Shown here piece after piece: positions 135-19,229 of a stretch of DNA of 59,641 nt. A program made the translations under genes and the position numbers. This DNA comes from Victivallis lenta (GTDB taxonomy: Bacteria; Verrucomicrobiota; Lentisphaeria; Victivallales; Victivallaceae). The notes beneath the pieces are model-generated. The model was not told the DNA's origin. It did not search any database and saw nothing but the letters and a program-made list of their open reading frames with translations. The DNA lies in contig NZ_VUNS01000030.1 of NCBI RefSeq assembly GCF_009695545.1, positions 1-59,641 of the forward strand. Reading direction: 5' to 3'. Each line of letters begins with the position of its first letter. Positions within the stretch are counted from its first letter, which is position 1.

Positions 135-497
135 GTGAAAATCGTATCCCTTGTGTCCATGACGTTTGCAGCCGTGCTTCTCCTGACCGGATGCGGTCAC
201 AACGCCATTCAGTATGGGGACGGCATCGGCTTTGACGTCGGAATCAATCCCAACAACTACATGCTGTCCTTGAACCTGCGGTATGGCAAAATCCTTTCCG
301 CCGTTGTCCGTGACAATGTCGAATTGGAGCTTTCCGGCAAAGCCGATGCCAATGGGATGAGTGGAGACCCAAACACCGCCGGGGCAAGTTCCGATGGCAA
401 TCTCAAGATCCAAATCGGCCGTCAGATCAACGGTGCAACTGTCGATCTGGTGAAGGCCGGAGCCGATTCCGAAAAAATCATAGAAAACCTGAAATAG
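135..497 (+). CDS. Small putative lipoprotein
   Basis: A 120-residue protein starting with GTG. Residues 1-19 form a signal peptide with a lipobox ending LTGC at 17-20, so Cys20 should be lipidated and the protein anchored in a membrane facing the periplasm. The mature part is Gly/Asn/Asp-rich with alternating hydrophobic residues (GIGFDVGINPNNYMLSLNLR), which suggests beta strands. I do not recognise a family. It lies 29 bp before a second small lipoprotein gene and is probably co-transcribed with it; the shared terminator is at 861-896. An overlapping minus-strand frame of similar length has no lipobox or start signal and was rejected. Confidence 0.6.
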   Translation: MKIVSLVSMTFAAVLLLTGCGHNAIQYGDGIGFDVGINPNNYMLSLNLRYGKILSAVVRDNVELELSGKADANGMSGDPNTAGASSDGNLKIQIGRQINGATVDLVKAGADSEKIIENLK

Positions 498-526: not shown

Positions 527-853
527 ATGACGAAAAAACAGAAAATCACTGCTGTCCTCGCTCTTGCATTCGCCTTCAGTCTCAGCATGGCGGTCATGTG
601 CGGATGCTCCTGTTTCACTCAGGAGCAGGTCGCCGAAATCCACAAAACGGTCGGGACCATTCTGGATATCGCCTACACCTCCGGCGGCGCTGTTCTTGTC
701 GAACAGAAGATCGACCAGCTCGTCGCCGACGGCAAGATCACACCTCAACAGGGAGAAATGCTCAAGGAAGCCTCCCGGCGTTCTTACGAGGCTCTGCAGG
801 CAAAACTTGCGGAGCTTTCAGTCAAAGACGTGGCCGTCGAAGTTTCCGAGTAA
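527..853 (+). CDS. Small putative lipoprotein
   Basis: A 108-residue protein with a good ribosome site (GAAAGGAAAC) before the ATG. A long hydrophobic signal segment at residues 7-24 ends in the Cys-rich stretch MCGCSCF; Cys27 (after CG) or Cys25 is the likely lipidation site. The rest is predicted helical and polar, with the stretch DGKITPQQGEMLKEAS, resembling small phage- or plasmid-type exported proteins. No family recognised. It follows the lipoprotein gene at 135 in the same direction and is closed by a strong terminator. Confidence 0.6.
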   Translation: MTKKQKITAVLALAFAFSLSMAVMCGCSCFTQEQVAEIHKTVGTILDIAYTSGGAVLVEQKIDQLVADGKITPQQGEMLKEASRRSYEALQAKLAELSVKDVAVEVSE

Positions 854-860
854 AAATGAA

Positions 861-896
861 GCCCGGCTGGGAGCTAGCTTTCCGGCCGGGCTTTTC
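861..896 (+). terminator. Rho-independent terminator
   Basis: GCCCGGC at 861-867 pairs with GCCGGGC at 885-891 and is followed by TTTTCGTTT, directly after the lipoprotein gene stop. Confidence 0.75.
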
Positions 897-1064: not shown

Positions 1065-1340
1065 CAATGCCCCAATATTTTTTTTGCATAATTTCCCCGG
1101 ATATCGCTCTGCCATACTTGCATAACTCTTTTTCCATGCTGTCAGGTGAAACTGTCATCACCCCCCGGCAGCATCACTTGTTTTTATTGCAAATGCAAAT
1201 GCTTCAAAATCAACGAGATAACCCCATATTTATTATCGCTGTTTCTTTCACAAACTACTGGCTATCAACGAATACCATGGCATTGTATACACTGTGGGCG
1301 GGGCGGTAAGGACACCGCACCGACAGAAGACAACCGAAAG
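1065..1340 (+). repeat. Leader repeat, copy 1
   Basis: Intergenic sequence that recurs upstream of genes at 2291 and 3317. Shared blocks include the GCAAATGCAAATGC direct repeat, CCCATATTTATTATCG, GGCTATCAAC (1260) and CATGGCATTGTAT (1276). The last two blocks start exactly 16 bp apart in all copies. The rest of the 897-1349 gap holds no supported gene. Confidence 0.75.
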
Positions 1341-1349
1341 GGAACAGAA

Positions 1350-1589
1350 ATGAACAACAGACTCGAAACCGCAGTCAAGGCCAATGCCGCCGAGGCGCGC
1401 CTGACGAAACAGAAGGTTCTGAAAGAACTGAAGCAACAGATGGAGGGACTGATTCAGCAGATCGAAAATGACAACCTGTGGATCAGCGACCTGAAAGAGC
1501 TCCACAATCAGGTCGCCGAGGCAGTCGCCCAGGTCACCGCCGCCGATGAAAAAATCAAAACGGAAGAACTTTTCAAGGCGTTCCAATAA
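1350..1589 (+). CDS. Small coiled-coil-like protein of unknown function
   Basis: A 79-residue, Glu/Lys/Gln-rich protein, almost certainly helical, with a heptad-like pattern through LKELKQQMEGLIQQIENDN. ATG at 1350 follows GGGAACAGAA. A longer reading frame runs back through the leader repeat, but it is not kept in repeat copy 2, so I start at 1350. No family recognised. It is the first gene after leader copy 1 and is followed 49 bp later by another small unknown gene. Confidence 0.55.
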   Translation: MNNRLETAVKANAAEARLTKQKVLKELKQQMEGLIQQIENDNLWISDLKELHNQVAEAVAQVTAADEKIKTEELFKAFQ

Positions 1590-1638
1590 TCAACGTGAGG
1601 CGGTCGAAAGGCCGCCCCAAAAAACAAGGTGATGCAAA

Positions 1639-1845
1639 ATGACTCCCGAAGAAAAACAGTCCGGAATTCCCTGTGTTCTGATTGGAACCGATGGAAACAT
1701 CTATACGCTCTTAGGGCGCGCCCGGCAAGCTCTGAGAAGAGGCGGTCGACCGGATCTGGTCGAACCAATGACCAAAGAGGTTCTTGCAAGCAAATCCTAC
1801 GAGGAGGCCATTGGACATATTTGCGAATATGTCGAGGCTGAATAA
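1639..1845 (+). CDS. Small protein of unknown function
   Basis: A 68-residue protein. The opening MTPEEKQSGIPCVLIGTDGN reads like the start of small plasmid or phage accessory proteins that handle a 'value/identifier', but no function can be assigned. AAAACAAGGTGATGCAAA lies before the ATG. It is followed by a terminator at 1860-1888, so it closes a two-gene unit with the gene at 1350. Confidence 0.5.
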   Translation: MTPEEKQSGIPCVLIGTDGNIYTLLGRARQALRRGGRPDLVEPMTKEVLASKSYEEAIGHICEYVEAE

Positions 1846-1859
1846 AGGAATTCTGCGAA

Positions 1860-1888
1860 AGCCGCCCGCACACGGAGCGGCTTTTTTC
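1860..1888 (+). terminator. Rho-independent terminator
   Basis: AGCCGC at 1860-1865 pairs with GCGGCT at 1877-1882, followed by TTTTT. Almost the same hairpin recurs at 2860-2890 as part of the repeated unit. Confidence 0.75.
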
Positions 1889-1889
1889 G

Positions 1890-2290
1890 CATAGTTTGCC
1901 CCTTGTCGCGCCGATCAGGTTAAGTATGCCTCCAGCGGGGTTCGGGGCCGACCGCATAATCGCAACACGAGCCGTTTCCGGCCAAACAACGGCGTTTTAC
2001 ATATCCGAATCCGGAGAGCTCTGCCCCTATATTTTTTCCTCAGATTTCCGGATTATTATCTCGATTTTCACTTGCTTTGCCCCTTATCCATGCTGCCGGG
2101 CAAGAGCAGCATCCTTTGTTTTTATAGCAAATGCAAATGCCTCAAAATCAGCGAAATAAACCCATATTTATTATCGATATTTCAGCGCAACTCATTGGCT
2201 ATCAACAAAATCCATGGCATTGTATGCATTGTGAACGGGAGCGACGACGACACCGCCAGAAAAACAAAAAAGCCAACAACGGAGGCCAAA
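1890..2290 (+). repeat. Leader repeat, copy 2
   Basis: This stretch is highly similar to 2890-3316, including the 20-mer starting TGCCTCCAGCGGGG at 1927 (again at 2927), the block GGAGAGCTCTGCCC, the GCAAATGCAAATGC direct repeat, GGCTATCAAC at 2197 and CATGGCATTGTAT at 2213. There is no conserved reading frame. It probably acts as a promoter/leader for the gene at 2291. Confidence 0.8.
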
Positions 2291-2494
2291 ATGATTCTCA
2301 CCATGAAAGCAGAACGGGAAGGATACGCCCCGGACCAAATCGCCAGAACCATGACCGTAGGAGAGCTGATTGAGTTCCTCAACAATTTCGACGAGGATGA
2401 AAAGATCTACCTCAGCCATGACAACGGCTACACCTACGGCGGAATTACCGCCTACCGGTTCGAAGAAATCGATGAGGAAGCTGAAAAAGAATAA
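2291..2494 (+). CDS. Small acidic protein of unknown function
   Basis: A 67-residue protein starting at ATG 2291 after GGAGGCCAAA, the same start context as the amidoligase gene. It contains MTVGELIEFLNNFDEDEKIY followed by SHDNGYTYGGI, a pattern I know from small phage/plasmid proteins of unknown role in which a short helix is followed by an 'L-S-x-D-x-G-x-x-Y' strand. The C-terminus is very acidic. It sits between leader copy 2 and a Cys-rich protein gene, in the same direction. Confidence 0.6.
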   Translation: MILTMKAEREGYAPDQIARTMTVGELIEFLNNFDEDEKIYLSHDNGYTYGGITAYRFEEIDEEAEKE

Positions 2495-2547
2495 CCAACA
2501 ACCCACCCGAGCGGTCGAAAGGCCGCTCGGAACCAACGGAGAAAAAA

Positions 2548-2844
2548 ATGAAAATCTGCGAAATTTGCAAAAAAACAATTTCCGAAGACGAGGTGTTCGG
2601 GGTCGACAAACACGAAAGCGTCTGCTTCGAATGCGCCGAGGCAGAGGCTTTGAAAGCGAAAGAGGAAAAGCGCGAAATTCAAATCACGCATGGAGAATTC
2701 GCGGAAGCCTGGAGCCTCTGCCAATGGTGCGACAGCCTTTTCCCGGAAAGCGAACTTCAGGAGGAGCGCGACCTCGGATACCTCTGCGGACACTGCATTT
2801 CCGCCATCAGTTCCCGGGGCGAGGAAGTATGGCTGAAAAATTAA
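2548..2844 (+). CDS. Small Cys-rich (zinc-ribbon-like) protein
   Basis: A 98-residue protein with two Cys clusters: CEICKK with CFEC near the N-terminus, and CQWCDS with CGHC near residues 58-85. This is two possible zinc-binding knuckle pairs with a helical Glu/Lys-rich linker. Such proteins usually bind nucleic acid or protein, but no family was recognised. It is closed by the terminator at 2860-2890. Confidence 0.6.
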   Translation: MKICEICKKTISEDEVFGVDKHESVCFECAEAEALKAKEEKREIQITHGEFAEAWSLCQWCDSLFPESELQEERDLGYLCGHCISAISSRGEEVWLKN

Positions 2845-2859
2845 CCGGGATCTTCCGAA

Positions 2860-2890
2860 AGCCGCCCGCGCACAGGGCGGCTTTCTTCGC
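2860..2890 (+). terminator. Rho-independent terminator
   Basis: AGCCGCCC at 2860-2867 pairs with GGGCGGCT at 2875-2882, followed by TTCTTCG. It is a near copy of the terminator at 1860 and begins the repeated unit. Confidence 0.65.
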
Positions 2891-3316
2891 ATAGTTTGCC
2901 CCTTGTCGCGCCGGTCAGGTTAAGTATGCCTCCAGCGGGGTTCGGGGCCGACCGCATAATCGCAACATGAGCCGTTTCCGGCCAAACAACGGCGTTTTTC
3001 ATGTCCGAGTCCGGAGAGCTCTGCCCTTATATTTTTTACGCAGATTTCCGGATTGTTATCTCGATTTTCACTTGCATTGAACCTTATCCATGCTGCCGAG
3101 GAAAAAAGCCCTTATCCCCGGCAGCATTCATTGTTTTTTATGCAAATGCAAATGCTTCAAAATCAATGAAATAAACCCATATTTATTATCGCTGTTTCTT
3201 TCGCAAATTACTGGCTATCAACGTATTTCATGGCATTGTATGCACTGTAGACGGGGGCGATGGGAACACCGCCCGAAACCCGGAACCGGTCAACAGGCAA
3301 AACAACGGAGGCCAAA
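2890..3316 (+). repeat. Leader repeat, copy 3
   Basis: Close copy of 1890-2290. GGCTATCAAC lies at 3213 and CATGGCATTGTAT at 3229, again 16 bp apart. It lies directly before the amidoligase gene and ends in the same CGGAGGCCAAA ribosome-site context as copy 2. Confidence 0.8.
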
Positions 3317-4213
3317 ATGACCAACACGATTCAGACGGCGAAGGAACTTACCTTCGGGACGGAACTCGAGTACACGAACATCAGCCGCGAACGGGCGGTG
3401 AAAGCGATCCACAGCGTGGTCGGCGGAACGATCCGCTACACCGGAGGCGGATACGACGAATGGACGGTGGTCGCACCGGACGGACGCCACTGGAAAGCGG
3501 TCAGCGACGGAAGCCTCGGAAGCCGTTCCACAAGCGCCGAGGTGGTGACCCCGATCCTCAAATGGGACGACATGGACACCCTTCAGGCGGTGGTTCGCGA
3601 GCTCCGCAAAGCCGGAGCGAAAACTCCGGAATGCACCAGCCAGCACGTCCACATCGGAGTCCGCGATTTCAACGCCCGGCAGATCGCGAACTTCGCGCGG
3701 ATTTTCTACAAGCAGGAAGAGCTTCTCCTCAAGGCGGCCGGAACGCTTCAGCGGCGAATCGACAGCTACACACGGCGCACCGACCGCGAATTCATCGCCC
3801 GGCTGGAAAAAGCCAAGCCCACCACGCGGGAGGAGCTCAACAAGGCATGGTTCGGATATTCAAATCCGAATCCCGCTCACTACGATTCCATGCGCTACCA
3901 TGCGATCAACCTGAACAACGTATGGCGGACCGGGACGGTCGAGGTACGCGCGTTTAATGGGACTACCCATGCCGGAGAGGTCAAAAGTCACATTGTCCTC
4001 TGCCTCGCCATCGCCGCCCTCGCCAAAAACGCAAAGTGCGCGAGCACGAAAAACCAGCGTCCCTTCTGCGCCGAAAGCGCGAAGTACGACATGCGGGTTT
4101 TCCTCCTCCGCCTCGGACTGATCGGCGAGGAATTCAAAAACGTCCGTATGCACCTCCTCAAGCACCTGCCGGGGAACACGGCATGGAAGCACGGCAGACC
4201 GGAAGGACGGTAA
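3317..4213 (+). CDS. Amidoligase family enzyme (COOH-NH2 ligase)
   Basis: A 298-residue protein with the pattern of the putative amidoligase family (PF12224), ATP-dependent ligases related to glutamine synthetase and glutamate-cysteine ligase. The visible motifs, in order, are GTELEYT (metal-binding Glu), SDGSLGSRS, SQHVHIGV (His pair) and TVEVRAFNGT near the C-terminal third. The start at 3317 follows GGAGGCCAAA. Predicted role: joining an amino acid or amine to a carboxyl group on a peptide or protein. The substrate is unknown. Two genes of the gamma-glutamylcyclotransferase fold lie downstream (5670, 6098); families with this fold cleave gamma-glutamyl amides and have been noted near amidoligases, so the pair may add and remove the same type of bond. 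Confidence 0.75.
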   Translation: MTNTIQTAKELTFGTELEYTNISRERAVKAIHSVVGGTIRYTGGGYDEWTVVAPDGRHWKAVSDGSLGSRSTSAEVVTPILKWDDMDTLQAVVRELRKAGAKTPECTSQHVHIGVRDFNARQIANFARIFYKQEELLLKAAGTLQRRIDSYTRRTDREFIARLEKAKPTTREELNKAWFGYSNPNPAHYDSMRYHAINLNNVWRTGTVEVRAFNGTTHAGEVKSHIVLCLAIAALAKNAKCASTKNQRPFCAESAKYDMRVFLLRLGLIGEEFKNVRMHLLKHLPGNTAWKHGRPEGR

Positions 4214-4329
4214 AGCAAAACACGGACCGGGGAAACCCGGTCCGATAAAAAGGTAGCATAGCTTGCAGAAGATGCAAGCGGTTCTTTGAAAATAAAAACG
4301 GAATAATTTCCGAGATTTCCGCACAGCTT

Positions 4330-4351
4330 GACTTGACTCGTTATGCAAGTC
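4330..4351 (+). repeat. 22-nt hairpin repeat, copy 1
   Basis: GACTTG, a 10-nt loop ending GTTATG, then CAAGTC. It is repeated at 4401-4422 with a single change in the loop. Confidence 0.7.
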
Positions 4352-4400
4352 GGAAATCGGAAAGAAAGCAGAATTATAACTGCGGTTTTGACCGGAGCAT

Positions 4401-4422
4401 GACTTGACTTGTTATGCAAGTC
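4401..4422 (+). repeat. 22-nt hairpin repeat, copy 2
   Basis: GACTTG-N10-CAAGTC, the second copy, starting 71 bp after the first. The two hairpins could be protein-binding sites or parts of a small RNA. Confidence 0.7.
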
Positions 4423-4632
4423 TCCGTTGAGGTCAAATCCGGCAAAATCGCAATTATTTTTTGACCCCTCGGCACCCGGAGTCCATAAAAAAATATGCCA
4501 CGTGTCGCAAAGTTTGGGGGCAACGTTCGATTTTAAGAGTCGACCCGAACCCCGCTGGAGGCAATAAAAACTGACTCGCGCCACAAAGCCGCAACTTCGC
4601 GAATGTCGGCGCACAAAAAAGGAGGGCAAACT

Positions 4633-4977
4633 ATGAAAATCCGCATTTACGAAACAGACTTCGAAGGCAATCCCGTCGAATGCACCGGTGACTTTTTTTC
4701 CGGAGCAACGGCTCTGGATATTGTCAATGCGATGAAAATGAACCCGTTTCAGGCAAGCCGGACTCCGCTGGAGTTCATGCGATGGATGCTTGCAAGTATC
4801 GGGCAGGAAAAGTTCGCCCTTCCTGACGATGAGGGAAAAGCTGCGCTTCTGTTTCTCCAGCGTCTTACAACCCTGGGATACGCCACATTTGTAATTGACG
4901 CGGATGAGGTTGATCTTGAGCATCCCATTCCGCCGATGCAGGGAAATCCGAAAAAGCAAGTATTACCAGCAAGATAA
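4633..4977 (+). CDS. Small protein of unknown function
   Basis: A 114-residue protein with a strong ribosome site (AAAGGAGGGCAAACT) before the ATG. It opens MKIRIYETDFEGNPVECTG and has a helix with ATALDIVNAMKMNPFQ, a layout I associate with small plasmid- or phage-borne proteins. No domain is assigned. The start context is the inverted copy of the leader-repeat edge. A minus-strand frame overlaps it but lacks a ribosome site. Confidence 0.6.
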   Translation: MKIRIYETDFEGNPVECTGDFFSGATALDIVNAMKMNPFQASRTPLEFMRWMLASIGQEKFALPDDEGKAALLFLQRLTTLGYATFVIDADEVDLEHPIPPMQGNPKKQVLPAR

Positions 4978-5011
4978 TCCGTTAATATATATCTGATTAT
5001 TAAGCTGTTGC

Positions 5012-5060
5012 GACTGGCTATAACGGCAATCCATGGCATTGTATGCCACACGAACGGAGC
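5012..5060 (+). repeat. Leader repeat, partial copy 4
   Basis: GGCTATAAC at 5016 and CATGGCATTGTAT at 5032 keep the 16-bp spacing of the full copies at 1260, 2197 and 3213. Only this short core is kept here, upstream of the DUF3846-like gene, so it is the best candidate for the functional core. Confidence 0.65.
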
Positions 5061-5093
5061 ATGGGGCTTCGGTCGGAAATCGGAGAGTTTTTT

Positions 5094-5522
5094 ATGAGAG
5101 CAATTTTCATCAACGCCGTCGACCAAAAGGTCGAAGAAATCCAAATCGAAAACGAGCTTCACGCATTTTATGAGCGCATCGGATGCGACATGATCCAGTG
5201 CATCGATGTCGGGGAGAGTCACCTGCTGGTCTGTGACGAGGAAGGCCGCCTCCGGAACTGGAAGGTCGGATTCCGGTGGCCCGGATCCGAAGGAATCGCC
5301 GGGAATGCTCTGCTGGTCTGTGTGGACAAGAACGACGACTTCACCGATGCAAAAGCTCCAAGAATTCTGATCGAACGGAACATCAAATTCCTCGACCTGG
5401 AAAAGACGCCGCTCCCGCCGCCCGCCTTCGGATGCGCTTTTATCCCGGATTTAACTCCGGAAAGCATTGAGGCGGCAAGGGCGGAAGCCATGCACGATCT
5501 CTTACGCAAACGCGGGTGCTGA
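5094..5522 (+). CDS. DUF3846-like protein
   Basis: A 142-residue protein. The start MRAIFINAVDQKVEEIQIEN followed by YERIGCDMIQCIDVGESHLLVCDEEGRL matches the pattern of the DUF3846 family, small proteins common on plasmids, phages and conjugative elements with no known function. ATG at 5094 follows GGAGAGTTTTTT. The C-terminal third (LPPPAFGCAFIPDLTPES) is an extension I cannot place. It lies after leader core copy 4 and before a hairpin terminator. Confidence 0.65.
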   Translation: MRAIFINAVDQKVEEIQIENELHAFYERIGCDMIQCIDVGESHLLVCDEEGRLRNWKVGFRWPGSEGIAGNALLVCVDKNDDFTDAKAPRILIERNIKFLDLEKTPLPPPAFGCAFIPDLTPESIEAARAEAMHDLLRKRGC

Positions 5523-5669: not shown

Positions 5670-6101
5670 ATGAAGGGGTTATACGCATATTTCGCATACG
5701 GAAGCAACCTGCTGCCGGAGAGGTTGTTTCAGCGTTGCCCGACGGCGGTTCCATATGCTCCGGCGATTCTGCCGAACTACCGTCTGACCGAACGGCTTTA
5801 TGCCGATGTCGACTATGCACCGGGAGAACAGGTTCACGGGTTTGTATATCTTCTCCGGGCGCATGACGTGGCGCGTCTTGACCGCTACGAGGGATATCCG
5901 CAGATTTACCTCCGTTACACCGTGGATGTGATCCTCGACGACGGGACGGAACTGCCCGCGCTGATTTACGAAATGACTCCGAAAACCAAGGAAATCCGCA
6001 ACGGATTACCCTATCCGGAAGAGTATCGGAAGATCTGTCGCGAGGGGGCGAATCTTCACAGAATCAAAAATCATTTTATCAGAAAATGGAGGCGCAAATG
6101 A
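5670..6101 (+). CDS. Gamma-glutamylcyclotransferase-fold protein (AIG2-like)
   Basis: A 143-residue protein with the classic fold signature AYFAYGSNLLPERL near the N-terminus (YGSNL substrate loop), then VHGFVYLL and LDRYEGYPQIYLRYTVDV. Members cleave gamma-glutamyl amine bonds by cyclisation, with a catalytic Glu; LDRYEGYP is the region that usually carries it. ATG at 5670 follows AGGAACTGAA. Its stop overlaps the start of a second protein of the same fold (ATGA at 6098), so the two are translationally coupled. Cytoplasmic. The substrate is unknown; the upstream amidoligase suggests a gamma-linked amide. Confidence 0.8.
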   Translation: MKGLYAYFAYGSNLLPERLFQRCPTAVPYAPAILPNYRLTERLYADVDYAPGEQVHGFVYLLRAHDVARLDRYEGYPQIYLRYTVDVILDDGTELPALIYEMTPKTKEIRNGLPYPEEYRKICREGANLHRIKNHFIRKWRRK

Positions 6102-6466
6102 AAAAAGAAACTGTCCTGATCGCCGCATACGGCACTCTCCGTTCCGGCGAACGGAATGAACGTTTCTGCCGGAATGCCATTTCCTGCAGAAGCGCAACGA
6201 TTTCTGGGACGCTCTATGACACGGGCTGGGGATTCCCGGCATTTGTCCCGAAAGGAAAAACAAAGGTCTCTGTCGAGCTGATTGAGATCCCGATCCGGGA
6301 CTGGGAAAATGTTGACCGTCTGGAGGGATATCCCCGCCTCTACGATCGTGTTCTGACGGATTTCCGCCTGCCGGACGGTTCGACTGTTCAGGCATGGATC
6401 TACACCATGAACCATCTTCCGGAGCAGGCAAAAGTCATCCCCTCCGGCGACTGGAAAGCGAGGTGA
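6098..6466 (+). CDS. Gamma-glutamylcyclotransferase-fold protein, second copy
   Basis: A 122-residue protein of the same fold but from a different subfamily (AAYGTLRSGERN at the N-terminus, VDRLEGYPRLYDRVL in the middle, VQAWIYTM near the end). It resembles the YtfP/GGACT type, which acts on gamma-glutamyl-lysine or epsilon-linked amines. It overlaps the previous gene by 4 bp. Two divergent cyclotransferases side by side suggest two related substrates or a heteromeric enzyme. Confidence 0.8.
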   Translation: MKKETVLIAAYGTLRSGERNERFCRNAISCRSATISGTLYDTGWGFPAFVPKGKTKVSVELIEIPIRDWENVDRLEGYPRLYDRVLTDFRLPDGSTVQAWIYTMNHLPEQAKVIPSGDWKAR

Positions 6467-6469
6467 ACC

Positions 6470-6679
6470 ATGGAAAAGACTGTCCTTGTTGAACTGACCT
6501 CAAAGCAGATCAAGCTGGCTGAAGGAATCGTACTGATGTGTTTGTTCGGAAGCCTCGCCGCCGGGCTGGGGCTGATGTATCTCTGGCTAACGCTGGGGAT
6601 CGTGATGTTCATCCTCGCCGGGATCGCGCTCGTCGGCTTCATGGTCGTCCGCGTCTGGCGCTGGTGGATGCACGGGTGA
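6470..6679 (+). CDS. Small membrane protein
   Basis: A 69-residue protein with two predicted membrane helices (roughly residues 18-36 and 39-60) and a basic/aromatic end (VWRWWMHG). It follows the cyclotransferase gene by 3 bp, so it belongs to the same transcript. No family recognised. Confidence 0.55.
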   Translation: MEKTVLVELTSKQIKLAEGIVLMCLFGSLAAGLGLMYLWLTLGIVMFILAGIALVGFMVVRVWRWWMHG

Positions 6680-6684
6680 GCATC

Positions 6685-6858
6685 ATGTGTGAACACTGCA
6701 TAGACTGCTTCTTCCGGGATGAGGACGGCGACCGGGAACAGTGCATTTTCGATCTCGAAAATCCGGTCGAGATCAACTACTCCGATCCGGCCTGTCAGCA
6801 CTTCGAGCTGAGCGAATCGGCGGCCGCAGAACGGCGCAAGGCTCCCGGCGAACTGTAA
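6685..6858 (+). CDS. Small Cys-containing protein
   Basis: A 57-residue protein with CEHCIDC near the N-terminus and a later Cys in QCIF and ACQHF, a possible small metal-binding knuckle. It is acidic. The start at 6685 is chosen because it follows the previous stop closely and begins with the Cys motif. Unknown function. Confidence 0.5.
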   Translation: MCEHCIDCFFRDEDGDREQCIFDLENPVEINYSDPACQHFELSESAAAERRKAPGEL

Positions 6859-6886
6859 GCGAACACTTTATTTGGAGGAGACGCAA

Positions 6887-7249
6887 ATGAAAGAGAAAAC
6901 AATCTGGCATCCCGCCTCGGAATTTCCTGAGAGCGGCGCGTATGTTCTGGTCGTGTACAACGGCCGCCTTCGGGAGCAGACCGTAAATCAGAAAATCATG
7001 GCGGACTTCTTCGAGACCAGCCACGGCGATCACGCAATGGCGGTCGGATATTTCCATCCGACTTGGGGCGCGGCGCTCGACAGGCGGACCCATATACCCG
7101 GCGTGAAATATCCGAAACGGACACCGCAGACAAATGCGGCAATTGTGGATCTGATAGGCAGTCCTGTTGATTTATGGCAGGGCGTGAAATGCTGGGCCTA
7201 CGGGAAAGACATCTATGCCCTGATCCCGAAGCCGGAAGGTTTTCATTGA
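6887..7249 (+). CDS. Protein of unknown function
   Basis: A 120-residue protein with a very good ribosome site (GGAGGAGACGCAA) before the ATG. It begins MKEKTIWHPASEFPESGAYV, a pattern found in small phage proteins of the DUF551-like kind ('W-x-x-x-x-x-x-P-x-x-G-x-Y-V'), which supports a phage or plasmid origin for this region. Last gene of the left accessory region. Confidence 0.6.
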   Translation: MKEKTIWHPASEFPESGAYVLVVYNGRLREQTVNQKIMADFFETSHGDHAMAVGYFHPTWGAALDRRTHIPGVKYPKRTPQTNAAIVDLIGSPVDLWQGVKCWAYGKDIYALIPKPEGFH

Positions 7250-8179: not shown

Positions 8180-9169
8180 ATGAAACACTTACCTAAAAGT
8201 ACACTTACGGAAATATTGAATGACCCATACGGATTTACTTACAAAGAAATGTCGGAAGTAATTGGAGAGGATAAAGCAAGAGCCTTATATGCGGAATTGT
8301 ATAAACAGCCATTTCACAAAAAAAATCTATCAATATCAACAAAAAAAGTCTATAAAAGTAGCGATACTGAAAAGTATGTTTATGAATTGAAAGACAACAG
8401 GTATATCGAAACGGTTTTTATTAAACGGCGAGATGGTGGGACTGTTTGCGTAAGTACGCAAGTTGGTTGTTCTGTTGGCTGTATTTTTTGTGAGTCCGGA
8501 CGCAATGGTTTCGTTCGTAATCTAACACCATCTGAAATTGTGCAACAGGTCATATTGATACGTCAAAAAGTAAATCGTATCGTTTTTATGGGAATGGGAG
8601 AACCTTTATTCAATTACGACAACTTGATTGCAGCAATCCATATTCTTCGAGATAGAAATGGACTTAACTTTCCAACCGACGGCATTACCGTATCAACAGT
8701 TGGTCCAGTTAATCAATTAAAAAAATTGCGCGAAGAACATCTAAAAATTCAGTTGACAATATCTTTACATGCAGCAACACAGGCTGCGAGAAACTGCATC
8801 ATTCCTCATATGCACATGTACGCTATTGAAGATGTTGTTAAGCAAGCATTGTCCTATTCACAAAGGCATAATCGAAAAGTGGTATTTGCGTATTTGCTTT
8901 TACCAGGTATAAATGACCGTTCCTCAGATATAAGGCAACTTGCAAAATGGTTTAAGGGCAAAAATGTTATGATTAACGTGCTGCAATACAACCCGACGAG
9001 TAATTCAAAAATTAGAGCACCACAAAAACAAGAAATGGTTGCGTTCAAACATCAATTAGAGCAAACAGGACTTGAAGTTACCATGAGAGTTTCTCATGGT
9101 AGAGAGATTAAAGCAGCTTGTGGACAGTTAGCTAATACATATAATAAAGCCAAAAAACAACAAAAATAA
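8180..9169 (+). CDS. Cfr/RlmN-family radical SAM 23S rRNA methyltransferase
   Basis: A 329-residue protein of the RlmN/Cfr family, which methylates A2503 of 23S rRNA at C2 (RlmN) or C8 (Cfr, giving resistance to phenicols, lincosamides, oxazolidinones, pleuromutilins and streptogramin A). The radical SAM cluster is C97-x3-C101-x2-C104, followed by FMGMGEPLFNYDN. The second catalytic Cys, which takes part in methyl transfer, is Cys314 in HGREIKAACGQL. The N-terminal domain is short, as in mobile members. The gene is A/T-rich compared with its host, has a strong terminator and sits beside tet(W) in a mobile element, so resistance is plausible. Which carbon it methylates cannot be read from sequence alone, and it is not a close match to the Cfr sequence I remember. 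Confidence 0.8.
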   Translation: MKHLPKSTLTEILNDPYGFTYKEMSEVIGEDKARALYAELYKQPFHKKNLSISTKKVYKSSDTEKYVYELKDNRYIETVFIKRRDGGTVCVSTQVGCSVGCIFCESGRNGFVRNLTPSEIVQQVILIRQKVNRIVFMGMGEPLFNYDNLIAAIHILRDRNGLNFPTDGITVSTVGPVNQLKKLREEHLKIQLTISLHAATQAARNCIIPHMHMYAIEDVVKQALSYSQRHNRKVVFAYLLLPGINDRSSDIRQLAKWFKGKNVMINVLQYNPTSNSKIRAPQKQEMVAFKHQLEQTGLEVTMRVSHGREIKAACGQLANTYNKAKKQQK

Positions 9170-9200
9170 TTTAATTAAAAGAGCCAGACGCACAGACGCA

Positions 9201-9248
9201 GAGCCGATAATATGCAGTTTGAAATACTGCTGTTATCGGCTCTTTTTT
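9201..9248 (+). terminator. Strong rho-independent terminator
   Basis: GAGCCGATAA at 9201-9210 pairs with TTATCGGCTC at 9233-9242, with a further inner stem (GCAGT/ACTGC), followed by TTTTTT. Ends the Cfr-like gene. Confidence 0.85.
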
Positions 9249-9419
9249 GATTTAATTTGTGCCCCCAATAACCATATTGGAGCAAAATCAGAACTGTTGC
9301 TTGTCGTTCTTTGATTTCCGCAGCAGCTTTGAAAAACCAAAGCCGCCGTTTCTTTTTATCTTCTAATGAAATGACGCGGTATCACTGTTAAAAGCGGCGG
9401 CTAAAAGGAGGTAGCCGCC
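9249..9419. other. Degenerate intergenic stretch in the inner element
   Basis: No supported gene. It holds short A/T-rich sequence and, near the end, a GGCGGC stem with GGAGGTAGCCGCC, the ribosome-site region of the frameshifted gene at 9420. Confidence 0.4.
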
Positions 9420-9757
9420 ATGAAGCACATACCATATCGACAAAATCCGACGGTCATTGACACATCAAAAAAAGCCCGACCACCGCCGGGGAAAACTACG
9501 TCTATCAATATGAACTGTCTAATCATCTGAATACCGCTTACAATACCTATACGTCTGTCCGGGCTTTTCGGACAGGCGTATTTTGCTGCTCAAAAAATTT
9601 TTTGAAAAAAATCCGAAAATCTTCGGCGTTTTTTTCAAAAGGCAGTATTGCCCCGCGAAAAGGGGGAAGCACCACCAACTTTCCAACGAGAAAGGGGGTG
9701 AGAATGTGGAACCTAATCGCAGGGAGTTTATAAAACAGTGCGCTTTCCAGAAGTTTT
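9420..9757 (+). pseudogene. Frameshifted small transposon-borne gene
   Basis: ATG at 9420 follows AAAAGGAGGTAGCCGCC and reads MKHIPYRQNPTVIDTSKKAR, then stops early. After a frame change near CCGCCGGGG (about 9488) the downstream frame gives ENYVYQYELSNHLNTAYNTY and then TSVRAFRTGVFC, ending near 9757. The two parts fit one short protein common at this place in Firmicutes elements. It overlaps the start of the sigma-like gene at 9706. Its function is unknown to me. Confidence 0.5.
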
Positions 9758-10137
9758 GTAATACGGTACTGCACAATGAAGCGTGTGACGCTCACAAAGA
9801 GCTGCACAGGCATAAGGCAAGGGAGATTACCTTTTCCGACTTGACCTTAGAAGAAGCGCGGCAGCTTCATACCTTTGATGAATATTTCAAAGGGGAAATC
9901 GCCTTTGAAAGAGCCGGGAAGAAAATCACGCCGAAGCTGCTTCTTGAAGCAATCCGTACTTTGCCGGAAGAAAAGCGCAAAGCCGTACTCCTGTACTATT
10001 TCGAGGGAATGAACGACACCGAGATTGCGGAGCTGTTCGATACGTCGAGAAGCACGATACAGTACAGGCGGACAAGCTCTTTTGAGCTGCTAAAAAAATA
10101 TCTGGAGGAAAATGCTGATGAATGGGACGAATGGTAA
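9706..10137 (+). CDS. Sigma-70 region 4-like regulator
   Basis: A 143-residue protein starting at GTG 9706 after AAAGGGGG. The C-terminal half holds a region 4-type helix-turn-helix: LPEEKRKAVLLYYFEGMNDTEIAELFDTSRSTIQYRR, in which two short pieces (LLYYFEGMND and TEIAELFDTSRSTIQ) carry the helices. Such proteins are found in Tn916-like and TnpX-type elements and control element genes. It overlaps the next gene by 26 bp. It has an equivalent, broken copy in the outer element at 18637-19059. Confidence 0.8.
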   Translation: MEPNRREFIKQCAFQKFCNTVLHNEACDAHKELHRHKAREITFSDLTLEEARQLHTFDEYFKGEIAFERAGKKITPKLLLEAIRTLPEEKRKAVLLYYFEGMNDTEIAELFDTSRSTIQYRRTSSFELLKKYLEENADEWDEW

Positions 10138-10378
10138 CGAACCCGGCTACCCGGAAAAAGCCCTTGTTCCCTATCCTGTCATTTTGGCAGCGACAAAGGG
10201 CGACCCGGACGCTATGAAGATTGTCTTGCAGCATTTCAGCGGCTACATAGCCCGCCTCTCCATGCGGAAGCTGTACGACGAGCGCGGGAACGTCTATTTT
10301 GGCGTAGACCACGACATTCGGGAACGGCTGCAAGCAAAACTGATGATGGCTGTCCTCACCTTTAAGGCAGAGGAATAA
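10112..10378 (+). CDS. Helix-turn-helix domain protein of a mobile element
   Basis: An 88-residue protein (starts at 10112 or 10118). The segment PVILAATKGDPDAMKIVLQH followed by FSGYIARLSMRK and DHDIRERLQAKLMMAVLTFK is the usual layout of the small HTH_16-type proteins that follow the sigma-like gene in Firmicutes elements (like Tn916 Orf8). It probably regulates transfer or excision. The outer element has a counterpart at 18447-18650. Confidence 0.75.
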   Translation: MLMNGTNGNEPGYPEKALVPYPVILAATKGDPDAMKIVLQHFSGYIARLSMRKLYDERGNVYFGVDHDIRERLQAKLMMAVLTFKAEE

Positions 10379-10852
10379 ACCGCAGCGGCGGGACGCTTTC
10401 TCTCTCCCCCTTTTCCGTTCCGCTGCTGACGCGGCAGCAAAGCCATTCTGAACCTTGACAAAGAAAGCGGCGCAAGATAACGGCGGCGCAGCATAGGGCA
10501 AATCGGATACGTTCCTTTTGCGCCGAGCCATACGGTGGGTGCGCCATGACGCTATCCGGGTGAGGTTATCCCCGCCCGGACAGCCGAGCGACCAACACCG
10601 CGCCGGAAAGCAAGTGTAGCGGCTTGCGGGCGACGACACGCAAAATATACAATGATACTTCCTTACAGCCACAGTCCGAGCGTTAAGAGCGTCGCAGGCA
10701 ATGGGTAGGGCTGCATGAGAACCATGCCGGGGTGAAATTCCCATGAGGTTATGCTAATAACCGTCCGATTAAAGCCTTTGTTTTCTTGAATAGTGGACTT
10801 GCTGCTATTCATAGACTGTATTATATGTTTGCGAAAGAAAGGGGGATTTTCT
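10379..10852 (+). ncRNA. Candidate structured RNA / long leader before tnpW
   Basis: About 470 bp without a supported gene between the HTH gene and tnpW. It is GC-rich and full of short complementary segments, for example CCGGG and CCCGG flanking TGAGGTTATCCCCG near 10556-10580, and later CCATGCCGGGGTGAAATTCC with CATGAGGTTATGC around 10720-10752. The length, GC content and stems suggest an RNA structure rather than decayed coding sequence. I cannot name an RNA family. Confidence 0.35.
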
Positions 10853-11020
10853 TTGACGCAAAACCAGACGCCCGTTACCACAACGGAGCATAAAATCGGA
10901 AAAGTTACTTACCTTGTATGTTCGTCCGCAAGTGAACGCGCAACGGACACACTGGATAAAAAGATAAAGAAGCTCATTCGCAAGGACATGGAGCTGAACC
11001 CCGCAAACGCCCGGAAATAG
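10853..11020 (+). CDS. tnpW: TnpW family transposon protein
   Basis: A 55-residue protein starting at TTG 10853 after AAGGGGGATTTTC. It has the family core EHKIGKVTYLVCSSASERAT followed by DTLDKKIKKLI. TnpW-like proteins lie directly before the large serine recombinase in Tn4451-type elements; their exact role is unsettled. The recombinase follows 100 bp later. A related protein is encoded by the outer element at 13158-13346. Confidence 0.8.
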   Translation: MTQNQTPVTTTEHKIGKVTYLVCSSASERATDTLDKKIKKLIRKDMELNPANARK

Positions 11021-11075
11021 GGCGTTTCTTCACATTTTATACATGACACAGGCAGCGGTATGTGGTATAATATAG

Positions 11076-12797
<1,722 letters not shown>

Positions 12798-12810
12798 CAT
12801 ACATCAAAAA

Positions 12811-13076
<266 letters not shown>

Positions 13077-13079
13077 CTA

Positions 13080-13105
13080 TTCCGTGGTTTCATTGTACCA
13101 CGGAA
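13080..13105 (-). promoter_or_regulatory. 9-bp inverted repeat between tnpW-like gene and recombinase remnant
   Basis: TTCCGTGGT at 13080-13088 and ACCACGGAA at 13097-13105, in the 111-bp gap before the remnant. It could be an operator or a terminator for the tnpW-like gene. Confidence 0.45.
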
Positions 13106-13157
13106 CAGGGGCGGCTGTACAGCGGTAAAAGTGATAAATCTGCTTCTTTACAGCTTG

Positions 13158-13346
13158 TCAAATCGCCTTTTTTTGTGTAGCAGCGGCTTCCGCTTCCAGT
13201 ACCCTCGCCATCTTGTCGGCGGCGGTGCTGGTGGTGTCTTTCTTGAAAAAGCCGGACACGACAAGAACGGTATTCCCCATGCGGATTTCCGTCACGCAGT
13301 CGGGGCGGCGGGTGGTACGGTGGTCGTGCTGCTTGATATTCTCCAT
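13158..13346 (-). CDS. TnpW-like transposon protein, outer element
   Basis: A 62-residue protein. ATG at 13346 follows AAAGGAGTATTGCCT. It contains TEIRMGNTVLVVSGFFKKDT and TAADKMARVLEAEA, the 'gene expression-like strand plus TxAxKM' layout of small proteins that precede the recombinase in these elements. It stands between the DnaC gene and the recombinase remnant, on the same strand, as expected for the outer element. Confidence 0.65.
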   Translation of the reverse strand: MENIKQHDHRTTRRPDCVTEIRMGNTVLVVSGFFKKDTTSTAADKMARVLEAEAAATQKKAI

Positions 13347-13360
13347 AGGCAATACTCCTT

Positions 13361-14200
13361 TCATTCAGCCAGCAGTTTCTTCATGGTTTCCATTTTCCGC
13401 TTTGCGGTTTCCTGCCGGAAGTTGACGCCAGTAAAGCGTATCGGGACGCACATGGACAGCAGTCGGTCATAAATCCGGGAATGGGCCGTGTCTGTCGGCT
13501 TTTTCAACTCGTCCAGCGGGCGGTTGGTGGTGGCGATCAGCGGCTTGTTGCTGCGGTATCGGGTATCAATCACATGGAATACCTGTTCCAGTCCATAGTC
13601 GGTGCCACGCTCCATGCCGAAGTCGTCAATGATAAGCAGCGGATAGCGGCAAAGGCGGGAAATATACTCATTCCGGCCTGTAAAGCCGGGAGAGAGGTCG
13701 CCCAGGATAACGGCGAAGTTCGTCATATATACGGGGACTTCTTTCTCCATGAGGGCGTTTGCGATACAGCCCGCAAGGTAGCTTTTCCCGTTGCCGACGT
13801 TCCCCCAGAACAGGCAGCCGATGTTTTCGGCCTGCATTTCTTCCCAATGCTCCGCATACCGCCGGGCAATCCCGGTCTGCGGGTTTCTGCCGTTGTCGTT
13901 CTCGAATGTCCATTGCTGCATGGCTGAGTCGGCAAAAGCCCTCTGTTTCAGATTTTCCACGGCTTCCACATGGCGGCGGTGTTCCTCGGCGGCCTGCCGC
14001 TGCTCACGGGCGGCTCTCTGGCAGTCGCACTCTGCCGGGTGGCGGTCACGGCCAAACAGCTCCTTACCCTCCGGGAAGTAGGCTTCTTTCGGCGTATGGC
14101 ACTTTCCGCAGTAAAGCAGTCCGTCCTCGCCGATATAGTCCTCCATCTCCGGGGCGGCGGTTGTCATGTTCTCCAAAATATCTTTGATTTCACTTGTCAT
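13361..14200 (-). CDS. DnaC-like helicase loader ATPase
   Basis: A 279-residue AAA+ protein of the DnaC/IstB type. An N-terminal Cys cluster (CGKCHTPKEA, CDCQRA) is followed by Walker A GNVGNGKSYLAG, Walker B LLIIDDFGMERG and sensor 1 LIATTNRPL. It probably loads the replicative helicase during element replication or transfer. It overlaps the RepA gene by 4 bp (ATGA), so the two are coupled. Confidence 0.9.
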   Translation of the reverse strand: MTSEIKDILENMTTAAPEMEDYIGEDGLLYCGKCHTPKEAYFPEGKELFGRDRHPAECDCQRAAREQRQAAEEHRRHVEAVENLKQRAFADSAMQQWTFENDNGRNPQTGIARRYAEHWEEMQAENIGCLFWGNVGNGKSYLAGCIANALMEKEVPVYMTNFAVILGDLSPGFTGRNEYISRLCRYPLLIIDDFGMERGTDYGLEQVFHVIDTRYRSNKPLIATTNRPLDELKKPTDTAHSRIYDRLLSMCVPIRFTGVNFRQETAKRKMETMKKLLAE

Positions 14201-14991
14201 AAGCTTTCTCCCTCCATACAGGTATAGTCGGGGATGCCCTGTTTTACGGCTCCCTTTTTGTCATTGGCCGCCCATCTGTGCAAGGCGGCGGCATAATTCT
14301 GGTAGGCTTTCCCGCTGGCGGCAAGGTAATGGCTCATTTCCTCAATCAGCCGTTCCAGCCTGTCCGGGTATTCTGCCTGTAACTCGTCATATTCGTCCTT
14401 TGACAGAAAAATATTCTCATATCGGCCATAAGCTGTGGGCGGCTCCCCACTCGCTCTCATTGTTTGGTTCTCTATTAAGTTGTTTATATTAGTTTTGTTA
14501 GGGGTCGGTTTTCCGACCATCATAGGGTCGGTTTTCCGACCGTCATAAGGTCGCTTTTCCGACTGTATGAGGGTCGCTTTTCCGGCCATCAGTTGGTCGG
14601 AAAACCGTACCACTGGGACAGGCGGCACTTTCACATAAAGCCGATTGGGTGCGGAGAAGCCCCGCCGTTCCCGTTCTAAAAGCCCGGCTGCGTCCAGTTC
14701 TTTCAAGGCTCCCTTGATGGCGGTACAACCCTTGTCCAGCATTTCCGCTATCTCCGCAACGGGGTAGACAATGAATATCCTGCCCTCGCCGTCCTGCCAG
14801 CCGTTCTTCTGTGACAGGGTGGAGCGGTCTAATAAAAGCGCATACAGCAGCTTGGCGGTCTGTGAAATCTCCATTTTCAGCAGGAAACGGGGGTATGGAA
14901 GATAGGCGGGCAGCGTGGTGTCTGCCCTGATATAATCAGCGATAGTATCACCTCCCTCTGTGTTGTGTCGTTTTTGGGCTTTGTCACGCAT
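14197..14991 (-). CDS. Replication initiator, RepA N-terminal family
   Basis: About 264 residues if started at the Met of MRDKAQKRHNTEGGDT; a start 57 bp upstream is also open. The segment PAYLPYPRFLLKMEISQTAK, LLYALLLDRSTLSQKNGW and EMLDKGCTAIKGALKELDAAGL is the winged-helix RepA_N domain of Firmicutes plasmids. A long polar, repeat-containing linker follows, in which DNA encoding variants of 'GRKTDP/GKPTP' recurs around 14505-14590. The C-terminal part resembles the DnaB/DnaD-like tail. Role: initiation of replication of the excised element. Confidence 0.85.
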   Translation of the reverse strand: MRDKAQKRHNTEGGDTIADYIRADTTLPAYLPYPRFLLKMEISQTAKLLYALLLDRSTLSQKNGWQDGEGRIFIVYPVAEIAEMLDKGCTAIKGALKELDAAGLLERERRGFSAPNRLYVKVPPVPVVRFSDQLMAGKATLIQSEKRPYDGRKTDPMMVGKPTPNKTNINNLIENQTMRASGEPPTAYGRYENIFLSKDEYDELQAEYPDRLERLIEEMSHYLAASGKAYQNYAAALHRWAANDKKGAVKQGIPDYTCMEGESL

Positions 14992-15063
14992 TAGGACGGC
15001 ATTTCCGGGGGGAAAGGATAAATGTATCGCATACCCTTTGACACCCACGAAAAAAGCCTTGAT

Positions 15064-15450
15064 TTATGCGGGTTTGAAAGGCTCTAAAGCGTGACATTTC
15101 TGCCTTTGTTTCCGCTTTCTCTCGGCGGCTTTGCGTTTCTTCATGCACCCGGCGCAGCCGGGGCAGTATTTCCCCCGGTTGGATTTGGGGACAAAGGCCG
15201 CCCCGCAGACCGCGCAGCGTTTCCGGCTCCCCCGGTACAAGAGGGCTGCGGCCAGCTCCCCGTCAAGGGGCAGGACAGCCACACGGAACCAGCGGCACAT
15301 GAGGGAATAGGAAATGCTCTGGACGCACACGCAAGGCTCCCCGTCGTCTAACAGCAGGCAGTTCCCCTCGTCGTAGTTACAGCACTCATGCACAAGGCGG
15401 CGGGCTGCCTGGTGCTGGCGGTAGTCCATGCGGGACGGCTTATCGTTCAT
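15064..15450 (-). CDS. Cysteine-rich protein of mobilizable elements
   Basis: A 128-residue protein typical of Tn1549-like elements, usually annotated 'cysteine-rich VLP protein'. It has CCNYDEGNCLLLDDGEPCVC, CAVCGAAFVPKSNRGKYCPGC and a very basic end (KKRKAAERKRKQRQK). The Cys pairs suggest zinc binding, and the basic tail suggests DNA or RNA contact. It overlaps the relaxase gene by 11 bp. Role unknown. Confidence 0.8.
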   Translation of the reverse strand: MNDKPSRMDYRQHQAARRLVHECCNYDEGNCLLLDDGEPCVCVQSISYSLMCRWFRVAVLPLDGELAAALLYRGSRKRCAVCGAAFVPKSNRGKYCPGCAGCMKKRKAAERKRKQRQKCHALEPFKPA

Positions 15451-17116: not shown

Positions 17117-17477
17117 CTACTTTCTTTAGGACTTCATACTTGAGGGCGGCAAGGTCGGCGGCCGCTTCCCGCAATTCCTTTGCCATAGCCGGGTAGGGGC
17201 TATGCCACTCGTTGAGGGTGCGGGCAATCTGGTTGAGATTGCCGCCAATCCTGCCGTACTCGGCTGTGAGCTTCCCGACAGCGGAGAGCAGCTCGTCATT
17301 GACTGACGACACATGGAGTACGGGGCGTATGGTAGTGCGCCGGATGGCCTGCCGGAGAAATTCGGACTGACTGATACCATAGGGCGCAAGCCGTTCTGTG
17401 AAGTCGGCGTATTCTTCATCGGTCAGCCGGGTTTTCACAACATGGCTGCGGTGGGGGGTGTTGTATCGCTTCGGCAT
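17079..17477 (-). CDS. MobC-like relaxosome accessory protein
   Basis: A 132-residue protein; the ATG of MPKRYNTPHRSHVVKTRLTD is chosen because it follows AAAGGAGG. It has a ribbon-helix-helix-like N-terminus (TDEEYADFTERLAPYGISQS) and the MobC motif GRIGGNLNQIARTLNEW. It helps the relaxase reach oriT. It overlaps the relaxase gene by 38 bp. Confidence 0.85.
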   Translation of the reverse strand: MPKRYNTPHRSHVVKTRLTDEEYADFTERLAPYGISQSEFLRQAIRRTTIRPVLHVSSVNDELLSAVGKLTAEYGRIGGNLNQIARTLNEWHSPYPAMAKELREAAADLAALKYEVLKKVGDAVGNTQAFRL

Positions 17478-17499
17478 GGGCTGTAAACCTCCTTTCACT

Positions 17500-18120
17500 T
17501 ATCACAAAAAATGGGCTGGTCTGTTAGCTATTTTCGGGGCATTTCCTGTCTGCCGGACAGAAATATTTTTGCGGCGTAAGCCGCATAGCAGGGTTTGGGG
17601 AAGGCACTCCCCAACAAGTTTCCCGCGAGGGGCAAAACCGCAGAATTGCGGATTTTGGCACCGTGGTAGAAACTTGCTCTAAGTAAGCCGTAGATTTCCC
17701 CTTGCACTTACTACTCGTATAGCTGCCGCCTGTTTTGGCCGGATTTCTGCAAAAATCTTACGGCGTGGGGCGATTTTTACCCGCAGTTCTTTCTTTCCGC
17801 TAAAGATACATTTCAAAGGCCGCCAGCTACCCGCTTGCCGGGAATTTTCTCAAATTTTCCTTTGCCTTAGAAATACAGAAAATGCAGATTTGGCTACCGC
17901 CGCAGAAAATTTTTTGTTTCCGGCTTCACCTACCTACTACGGATGACTTTGCGATTTTGCCAAACGGATAAAGAAAAAAGCAGCAAATCTTTTTCAGACT
18001 TACTGCTTTCGCTGGCCGCCGATGGGCGGTGGATATTCAGTTTTGAAAGTTCAGGTCAGGTTGGCCCGATGATGGATAGCACAATAAATTCCTGTTTTCC
18101 CTTTAAGGCATTGTGCATTT
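17500..18120 (-). other. Non-coding region with probable oriT
   Basis: There is no gene over 620 bp directly upstream of mobC, the usual place of oriT. TTGGGGAAGGCACTCCCCAA near 17594-17613 is a hairpin. Minus-strand TAAGTGCAAGGGG near 17702-17714 resembles the TAAGTGC core of MOBP-type nic sites. The exact nick site is a guess. The right half (about 17720-18120) has only short A/T-rich stretches. Confidence 0.5.
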
Positions 18121-18123
18121 TTT

Positions 18124-18315
18124 CTATTTCTCTTGATGATTATTTTTTTCATAATCAATCAATGTACCTATAACAATTCCAATCAACATTCCGATACCTG
18201 CACAAATAGAAATAGCAAAAAGATTTTGCAAAAACGCCCATGCCAACACACCTATGCAACCACCGACAATAAATCCTGTTAATAAGCCAATAGTTAAGTA
18301 TTTATTACTTTTCAT
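18124..18315 (-). CDS. Small glycine-rich membrane protein
   Basis: A 63-residue protein with two predicted membrane helices rich in Gly (GLLTGFIVGGCIGVLAWAF; AGIGMLIGIVIGTLI), like glycine-zipper proteins. It is A/T-rich relative to its neighbours, so it may be separate cargo. Unknown function. Confidence 0.55.
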   Translation of the reverse strand: MKSNKYLTIGLLTGFIVGGCIGVLAWAFLQNLFAISICAGIGMLIGIVIGTLIDYEKNNHQEK

Positions 18316-18446
18316 ATTGCTATATCTCCCCTAAAAGTATATTTGTCGTTGGTTCTATTATACTATGACCTGCTTCCTTTAGGAATAGATGAATTGTAAA
18401 CTGGCTGGAGTGAAACCGCTAATGACAGCCAGTGTTTGTTCTTTGT

Positions 18447-19059: not shown

Positions 19060-19229
19060 GGAAATTCCCCCTCTCTGAATAATAGTGCGGGGCGGCAGTA
19101 CTCCTTGCTGTCGCCCCTTGATTGCCTACCAGCAAAGACGGGCGGGGCTGTCAACGACGGCGCGAAGCGGCGTTCATTTTATCGTTGACTGGCTCGGCTG
19201 GGTTTGCTATTTACCCGACAAACTTGAAT

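Follow-up and report, generated by a model that had tools for sequence, protein, structure and literature searches.

Why should one leader sequence stand in front of several unrelated small genes? The question is raised by a 59,641-nucleotide contig of Victivallis lenta (NZ_VUNS01000030.1; C30 of a 5.5-Mb Victivallales genome), which we analysed whole and call the window. With a probability of roughly 0.72, we propose that the leader acts as a regulated promoter, carried as a portable cassette, for the accessory (moron) genes that follow the tail module in one lineage of temperate tailed phages that infect Victivallales. Four cores in the window match GGCTAT-N10-CATGGCATTGTAT with 0 mismatches, their halves starting at 1260/1276, 2197/2213, 3213/3229 and 5016/5032, and no match at up to 3 mismatches arose when the window was shuffled 100 times with its dinucleotides kept. 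The original prediction, made from the letters of this DNA, had named these coordinates and a fixed 16-bp offset, and it was right for all four copies. The offset is exact within the window, but in relatives it is 16 or 17.

Beyond the core, leaders 2 and 3 have 257 nt in common at 91% (1847-2103 and 2847-3103, exactly 1000 bp apart), terminator-like hairpin included, as had been anticipated for this pair. Leaders 1 to 3 have 78 nt in common at 88-90%, further downstream than the 257-nt block, and leader 4 resembles the others in the core alone (77% over 43 nt). The proteins encoded downstream are unrelated, confirming that the similarity lies in the DNA and not in a protein frame. The segment at 4544-4563, formerly read as an inverted part of the leader, is not leader and belongs to a second repeated element of ~190 bp.

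Nearly all leaders stand ahead of genes. An ATG preceded by a Shine-Dalgarno (SD) sequence lies 75-115 nt downstream of 34 of the 35 instances with enough flank, compared with 6.8% for random sites, and in about one third of instances (13) the start is at almost exactly 100 nt. The copies are thus not at random places, and the strong matches fall in one phage lineage. At least 10 gene families, judged unrelated by eye, stand behind leaders, among them amidoligase, DUF3846, gamma-glutamylcyclotransferase (GGCT), several Cys-rich small proteins and orphans. That a common leader co-ordinates several small genes, as originally suggested, fits all the evidence.

The sequence also shows the phage context: positions 1 to ~7.25 kb of the window form the accessory end of a prophage. 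It can be compared with the 68-kb viral contig G137, which carries integrase, terminase, primase, helicase, portal and head genes and continues, by position and homology, with tape measure, tail and fibre genes, a 153-aa protein, a lipoprotein and then small genes. The first window gene is the same lipoprotein (61% identity), and genes up to 7249 keep the G137 order. Since the window begins within this tail-side order and follows G137, the accessory genes are prophage morons; the original prediction was correct in calling them accessory but missed their prophage nature. The order tail fibre, 153-aa protein, lipoprotein, leaders recurs wholly or partly in L023, L024, L032, L034, L084, L094/L085 and L100.

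Of the 137 genomes of the order, 18 had leaders that matched a model of 22 cores, as did 4 of 5 viral contigs, and the strong matches all belong to that one lineage; some relatives are contigs of metagenome-assembled genomes (MAGs). The strong sites of G137, at 54.7, 56.1, 58.1 and 59.9 kb, are every one in its accessory region, and a weak fifth site, at 5.5 kb, lies ahead of a gene whose counterpart in G123 follows a similar core. The genome-wide search for the core that had been advised found, at up to 3 mismatches, a single extra copy, C11:526; this is a paralogue of leader 4, followed by the same two genes, DUF3846 and GGCT, and all copies are in prophage segments. A host chromosomal element was rejected, as matches lie in prophage segments only. 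A pattern match in L008 (Pseudohongiella) is apparently within a coding region and was treated as chance. In C11, L007, L009 and L010, the motif is near contig ends; several related contigs break off at these repeats, so that copies may be missed and their number underestimated. Leader fragments in two related MAGs (L006 from ~4981, L007 from ~124, L010 1130-1400) are cut by the same repeat, GATAACGTCCGGAAAATTGCGCACATTTTGAGAG..., which is probably a transposable element or repeat. At L009 ~569, on a MAG contig, phage sequence starts at CTGGAGGCA right after a chromosomal gene, marking either a recombination junction or a chimaera.

Neither the exact core nor the 108-aa or DUF3846 protein had a match when viral contigs were scanned, the amidoligase matched five contigs, and the leader DNA was absent from all annotated phage records searched. 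A full-text literature search for Victivallales and phage returned eight papers, none of whose titles concerns phages of this order. These temperate tailed phages of gut Victivallales form a little-studied family.

What kind of element is the leader? Across 23 leaders, with 22 cores aligned, the layout from 5' to 3' is a distal box ATAGCMAGT, an AT-rich stretch, ACTGGMTAT, 13 or 14 nt, GGCATTGTATG(T)CACTGT, a hairpin, an A-rich linker, ACGGAGGC or similar, and the ATG. The box ACTKGMTAT overlaps a -35-like hexamer, with a -10-like hexamer 17-18 bp further on; the window cores have CTGGCT or TTGGCT, a 17-bp spacer in all four, and CATTGT. Relatives have CATATT, TAATGT or CAATGT at the -10-like position, the second base (A) and the sixth (T) being constant in the aligned set. 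Among the invariant columns of the 22 cores are G-G-n-A-n-n-n-T in the -10-like element and T-n-G-n-T in the box. A sigma-54 reading of TGGCATTGTATGCA was discarded, its GG-GC spacing being 8 and not 10.

The distal box, ACTTGCTAT, and the core box, ACTGGCTAT, are reverse complements of each other. In 24 of 34 distinct leaders, the distal box begins -59/-60 or -69/-70 from the TGG, while shuffled upstream sequences gave a mean of 0.1 and a maximum of 2; the two position classes are about one helical turn apart. The length difference in the spacer between the boxes is placed differently between leaders (e.g., L081 versus L031_11693). Such phasing, together with the shifting site of the length change, is what one protein bound to the two boxes from the same side of the helix would require, and it lends support to the single regulator suggested originally. 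A search for that regulator singled out no candidate, and a box scan of G137 showed clustering in the accessory region only.

Just past the core lies a hairpin, with stems such as GGGGCGGT/GCCGCCCC, GGGGTGGT/GCCATCCC, GGCGAGGT/GCCTCGCC and GGGACCGGT/GCCGGTTCC and usually GGA in the loop (30/44 instances). In 18 distinct strong hairpins, whose choice for pairing biases the observed value upwards, 6.17 of 8 pairs are Watson-Crick, compared with 4.88 when 3' arms were swapped among leaders (standard deviation 0.20, maximum 5.61, 2000 trials). Pair types vary, with C-G, A-T and T-A at one position. Consensus folding of 23 leaders recovered this hairpin (energy -9.1 versus 0 in shuffles) and nothing more, so that the "or RNA" of the original prediction holds just for this part. 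Among the window copies, leaders 1 and 4 keep the hairpin whole, leader 3 has a single mismatch in it and leader 2 has lost it. Upstream are terminator-like hairpins, followed by a second set of hairpins with T runs (Table 1). Rfam had no match near the leaders, its sole match in the window being pemK RNA at 10649; with no structure besides the one hairpin, a riboswitch or other known RNA was rejected.

From this architecture, we infer the following sequence of events. A terminator-like hairpin would insulate the unit from the preceding gene, and transcription would start a few bases past the -10-like hexamer (CATTGT, CATATT or TAATGT). The G+C-rich hairpin would then be close to the RNA 5' end, with a strong ribosome site and a start codon ~100 nt past the box, and could stabilise or otherwise mark the short mRNAs. 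A single DNA-binding protein on both boxes, on the same DNA face, would control all cassettes jointly; it would most likely be an activator overlapping the -35 region, an option favoured because the hexamers are poor. Taken further, the accessory genes of this phage lineage, which comes from a phylum hardly studied so far, might have a dedicated regulon. A new DNA-binding protein would read inverted box pairs spaced 60 or 70 bp apart, and fresh cargo would join by landing behind a copied promoter-hairpin unit, an extension that we put forward tentatively.

Several observations weigh against the promoter reading. A strict sigma-70 scan called no promoter at the cores, the -35 matching at best at 4/6 positions and the -10 at just 3/6; the promoter, if it is one, would therefore be weak or activator-dependent. 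Leaders 1-3 carry GCAAATGC in place of GCAAGT as their distal box, at -69/-70, and leader 2 has a degenerate hairpin. In one lineage, L085 (G053:C12), which has a row of leaders, box ACTGGCTAT and the hairpin are kept and the -10-like GGCATTGTATG is replaced by a palindrome, CGCTTAATTAATAAGCG; we take these leaders as a related, differently tuned version. Finally, leader instances are related by descent, and the counts given above are not independent.

The main rival turns the sign of regulation round: the promoter would be constitutive, and a prophage repressor on both boxes, possibly with a DNA loop, would silence the accessory genes in the lysogen or hold them at a low level. A looping repressor suits a box over the -35 with a distal inverted partner at one-turn phasing equally well. 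The poor hexamers are, however, more typical of an activator-dependent promoter, and the box matches of G137 are concentrated in the accessory region and not spread across the replication genes; we consider a repressor doubtful, if well worth keeping in mind. The strict conservation of both core elements, with spacing that varies by 1 bp only, is what a phage-encoded or alternative host sigma factor would produce, ACTGGMTAT serving as -35 and GGCATTGTATG as -10. This leaves the distal inverted box and its phasing unexplained, the -10-like part fits TAnnnT at two key positions as for the housekeeping factor, and no sigma factor was found among ten larger G137 proteins scanned, most G137 genes being outside that scan. 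Such a sigma factor seems quite unlikely.

The repeats may also be kept mainly as homology for cassette shuffling, as proposed for T4 PeSLs (promoter early - stem-loop), with little common regulation. Leaders 2 and 3, alike over a long block around unrelated genes, would fit, as would the different phages that carry unrelated genes behind similar leaders. Yet diverged leaders retain specific columns, spacing and compensatory hairpin changes that recombination alone would not select; shuffling, which is in any case compatible with a promoter, is unlikely to be the main explanation. The covarying hairpin after the core would be expected if the whole leader, core included, were a transcribed regulatory RNA (riboswitch-like or a small-RNA target). 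That hairpin is all that consensus folding yields, no Rfam family matches, and a shift of the distal box by one helical turn is not an RNA requirement; pairing of the distal box with the core was rejected, being mismatched as RNA in most copies, and we hold a regulatory RNA to be very unlikely. Least credible is translation control by CsrA at NNGGA loops and the SD. Despite the frequent loop GGA, CsrA (PF02599) was found neither in the host genome nor in the other searched genomes of the family, six more distant genomes of the order having it, and CsrA control was rejected.

The leaders resemble two known kinds of phage unit and are homologous to neither. Extended start-associated sequences (ESAS) of cluster K mycobacteriophages are intergenic repeats of 46-47 bp; they have SigA-like hexamers separated by 17-18 bp and an inverted repeat regarded as a protein-binding site, their function being unproven (PMC3203893, PMC11373665). 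Both are short repeated intergenic units in a single orientation ahead of several temperate-phage accessory genes, and the hexamer spacing is likewise 17 or 18 bp here, the hexamers being weak matches. In contrast to the 17-bp imperfect inverted repeats 4-14 bp apart of ESAS, the leaders have 9-10-bp boxes with centres 60 or 70 bp apart; in place of the 13-bp start-associated sequence (SAS) GGGATAGGAGCCC at the ribosome site or start codon, they have an A-rich stretch and ACGGAGGC or similar. The leaders also have a conserved 5' hairpin and lack an SAS, the host phylum is different, and no sequence relation was seen.

PeSLs of T4-like phages (Arbiol 2010, Comeau 2014; cited in PMC4503421) are terminator-promoter shuffling units. 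Like them, the leaders would be composite terminator and promoter units between small genes, in hypervariable regions and linked to cassette shuffling. A PeSL joins a stem-loop terminator to a promoter; here, hairpins with T runs lie upstream of a putative promoter. T4 PeSLs use strong early promoters and belong to lytic myoviruses, whereas the leaders have a weak putative promoter and paired boxes and belong to a temperate lineage. In T4 middle promoters, a MotA box replaces a good -35, ~13 bp ahead of the -10. The leaders similarly have a conserved box instead of a good -35 element, but the sequence is different and there is a distal inverted box with helical phasing. As in phage morons, the accessory genes lie between or after phage operons, outside the core operons (after tail fibre, 153-aa protein and lipoprotein, an order kept in the window), with terminator-like hairpins around them and probably their own promoters. 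Classical morons have unrelated individual promoters; here, one regulated, putative promoter type would be common to many.

Table 1. Features of the prophage end of the window
Feature	Position	Strand	Evidence
Phage lipoprotein gene, last of tail-side operon	135..497	+	61% identity to lipoprotein gene after G137 tail fibres
108-aa lipoprotein-like gene, last ahead of leader-driven cassettes	527..853	+	Open frame; L023/L024 homologues between lipoprotein and first leader
Terminator-like hairpin and T run closing that lipoprotein operon	861..895	+	Fold -29.3 kcal/mol, z -4.1
Hairpin then T-rich stretch, upstream of leader 1	1136..1174	+	Fold z -2.6; sequence
Leader 1 variant distal box GCAAATGC, -70 from TGG	1189..1196	+	Position; relatives' consensus form GCAAGT
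Leader 1 core: box/-35-like CTGGCT 1258-1263, 17-bp spacer, -10-like CATTGT 1281-1286	1258..1286	+	Putative promoter
Leader 1 5' RNA hairpin GCGGT-AAGGAC-ACCGC	1303..1318	+	Fold z -2.8; covariation in relatives
79-aa accessory gene, leader 1	1350..1589	+	Open frame with SD; L030 homologue behind same leader
68-aa accessory gene, second of cassette 1	1639..1845	+	phrog_1933, E 3.5e-13
Terminator-like hairpin ahead of leader 2	1861..1888	+	Fold z -3.5
Second repeated element, forward copy	1889..2040	+	Repeat comparison
Hairpin ATGCTGC/GCAGCAT and T run, upstream of leader 2	2090..2112	+	Sequence; place matches 1136-1174, 3090-3127
Leader 2 variant distal box, -69	2127..2134	+	Position
Leader 2 core: TTGGCT, 17 bp, CATTGT	2195..2223	+	Exact core match
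Leader 2 degenerate 5' hairpin	2237..2257	+	Folding not above shuffles, z +0.5
67-aa accessory gene, leader 2	2291..2494	+	phrog_3939, E 1.4e-17
98-aa CxxC zinc-finger-like accessory gene, cassette 2	2548..2844	+	Weak zinc-finger matches only; similar Cys-rich gene behind L031 leader
Terminator-like hairpin ahead of leader 3	2861..2888	+	Fold z -3.6
Second repeated element, forward copy	2889..3040	+	Repeat comparison
Hairpin and T run, upstream of leader 3	3090..3127	+	Fold z -4.6
Leader 3 variant distal box, -70	3142..3149	+	Position
Leader 3 core: CTGGCT, 17 bp, CATTGT	3211..3239	+	Exact core match
Leader 3 5' RNA hairpin GGGCG...CGCCC, one mismatch	3255..3274	+	Sequence; covariation in relatives
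Amidoligase gene, leader 3	3317..4213	+	PF12224, E 5e-53; behind leader in seven phages
Two TTGACTTGACTNGTTATGCAAGTC copies 71 bp apart, palindromic box, ahead of gene 4633	4325..4422	+	Repeat; palindrome in same place in sister phages
Second repeated element, inverted copy (the former "inverted part")	4471..4605	-	E 9.9e-10
114-aa accessory gene without leader of this kind	4633..4977	+	Homologues in 15 loci
Leader 4 distal inverted box AAAGCAAGTAT, -59; consensus form	4953..4963	+	Box scan
Leader 4 core: CTGGCT, 17 bp, CATTGT	5014..5042	+	Exact core match
Leader 4 5' RNA hairpin CGGAGC-ATGGG-GCTTCG	5055..5071	+	Hairpin listing; fold
DUF3846 gene, leader 4	5094..5522	+	PF12957, E 9.3e-13
Accessory region end: two gamma-glutamylcyclotransferase-like genes and small genes	5670..7249	+	G137 order kept

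The second repeated element occurs in the window at 927-1085 and as listed in Table 1, forward upstream of leaders 1-3 and inverted ahead of gene 4633, and also in L031, L034, L023, L024, L032 and L088. More than 30 places in the phage lineage carry it, at the borders of cassettes and in either orientation, and it is conserved as DNA; consensus RNA folding found no structure on either strand. It is possibly a recombination or protein-binding element. Ahead of the leaderless gene 4633, the box takes a palindromic form, ACTTG-N5-CAAGT, in two copies (4325-4351 and 4396-4422), and this palindromic box is kept before the homologue of gene 4633 in sister phages. A Firmicutes-like mobile resistance element adjoins the prophage at 8180-22685, with an RlmN/Cfr-family methyltransferase (below Cfr cut-offs), the pemK RNA, a serine recombinase and a TetM/W/O-family gene.

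For Victivallales phages, the leader offers a sequence handle for finding and annotating accessory genes, including amidoligase, gamma-glutamylcyclotransferase, DUF3846 and many orphans. If it is true that the boxes bind one regulator, these phages would switch all of their cargo with one factor.

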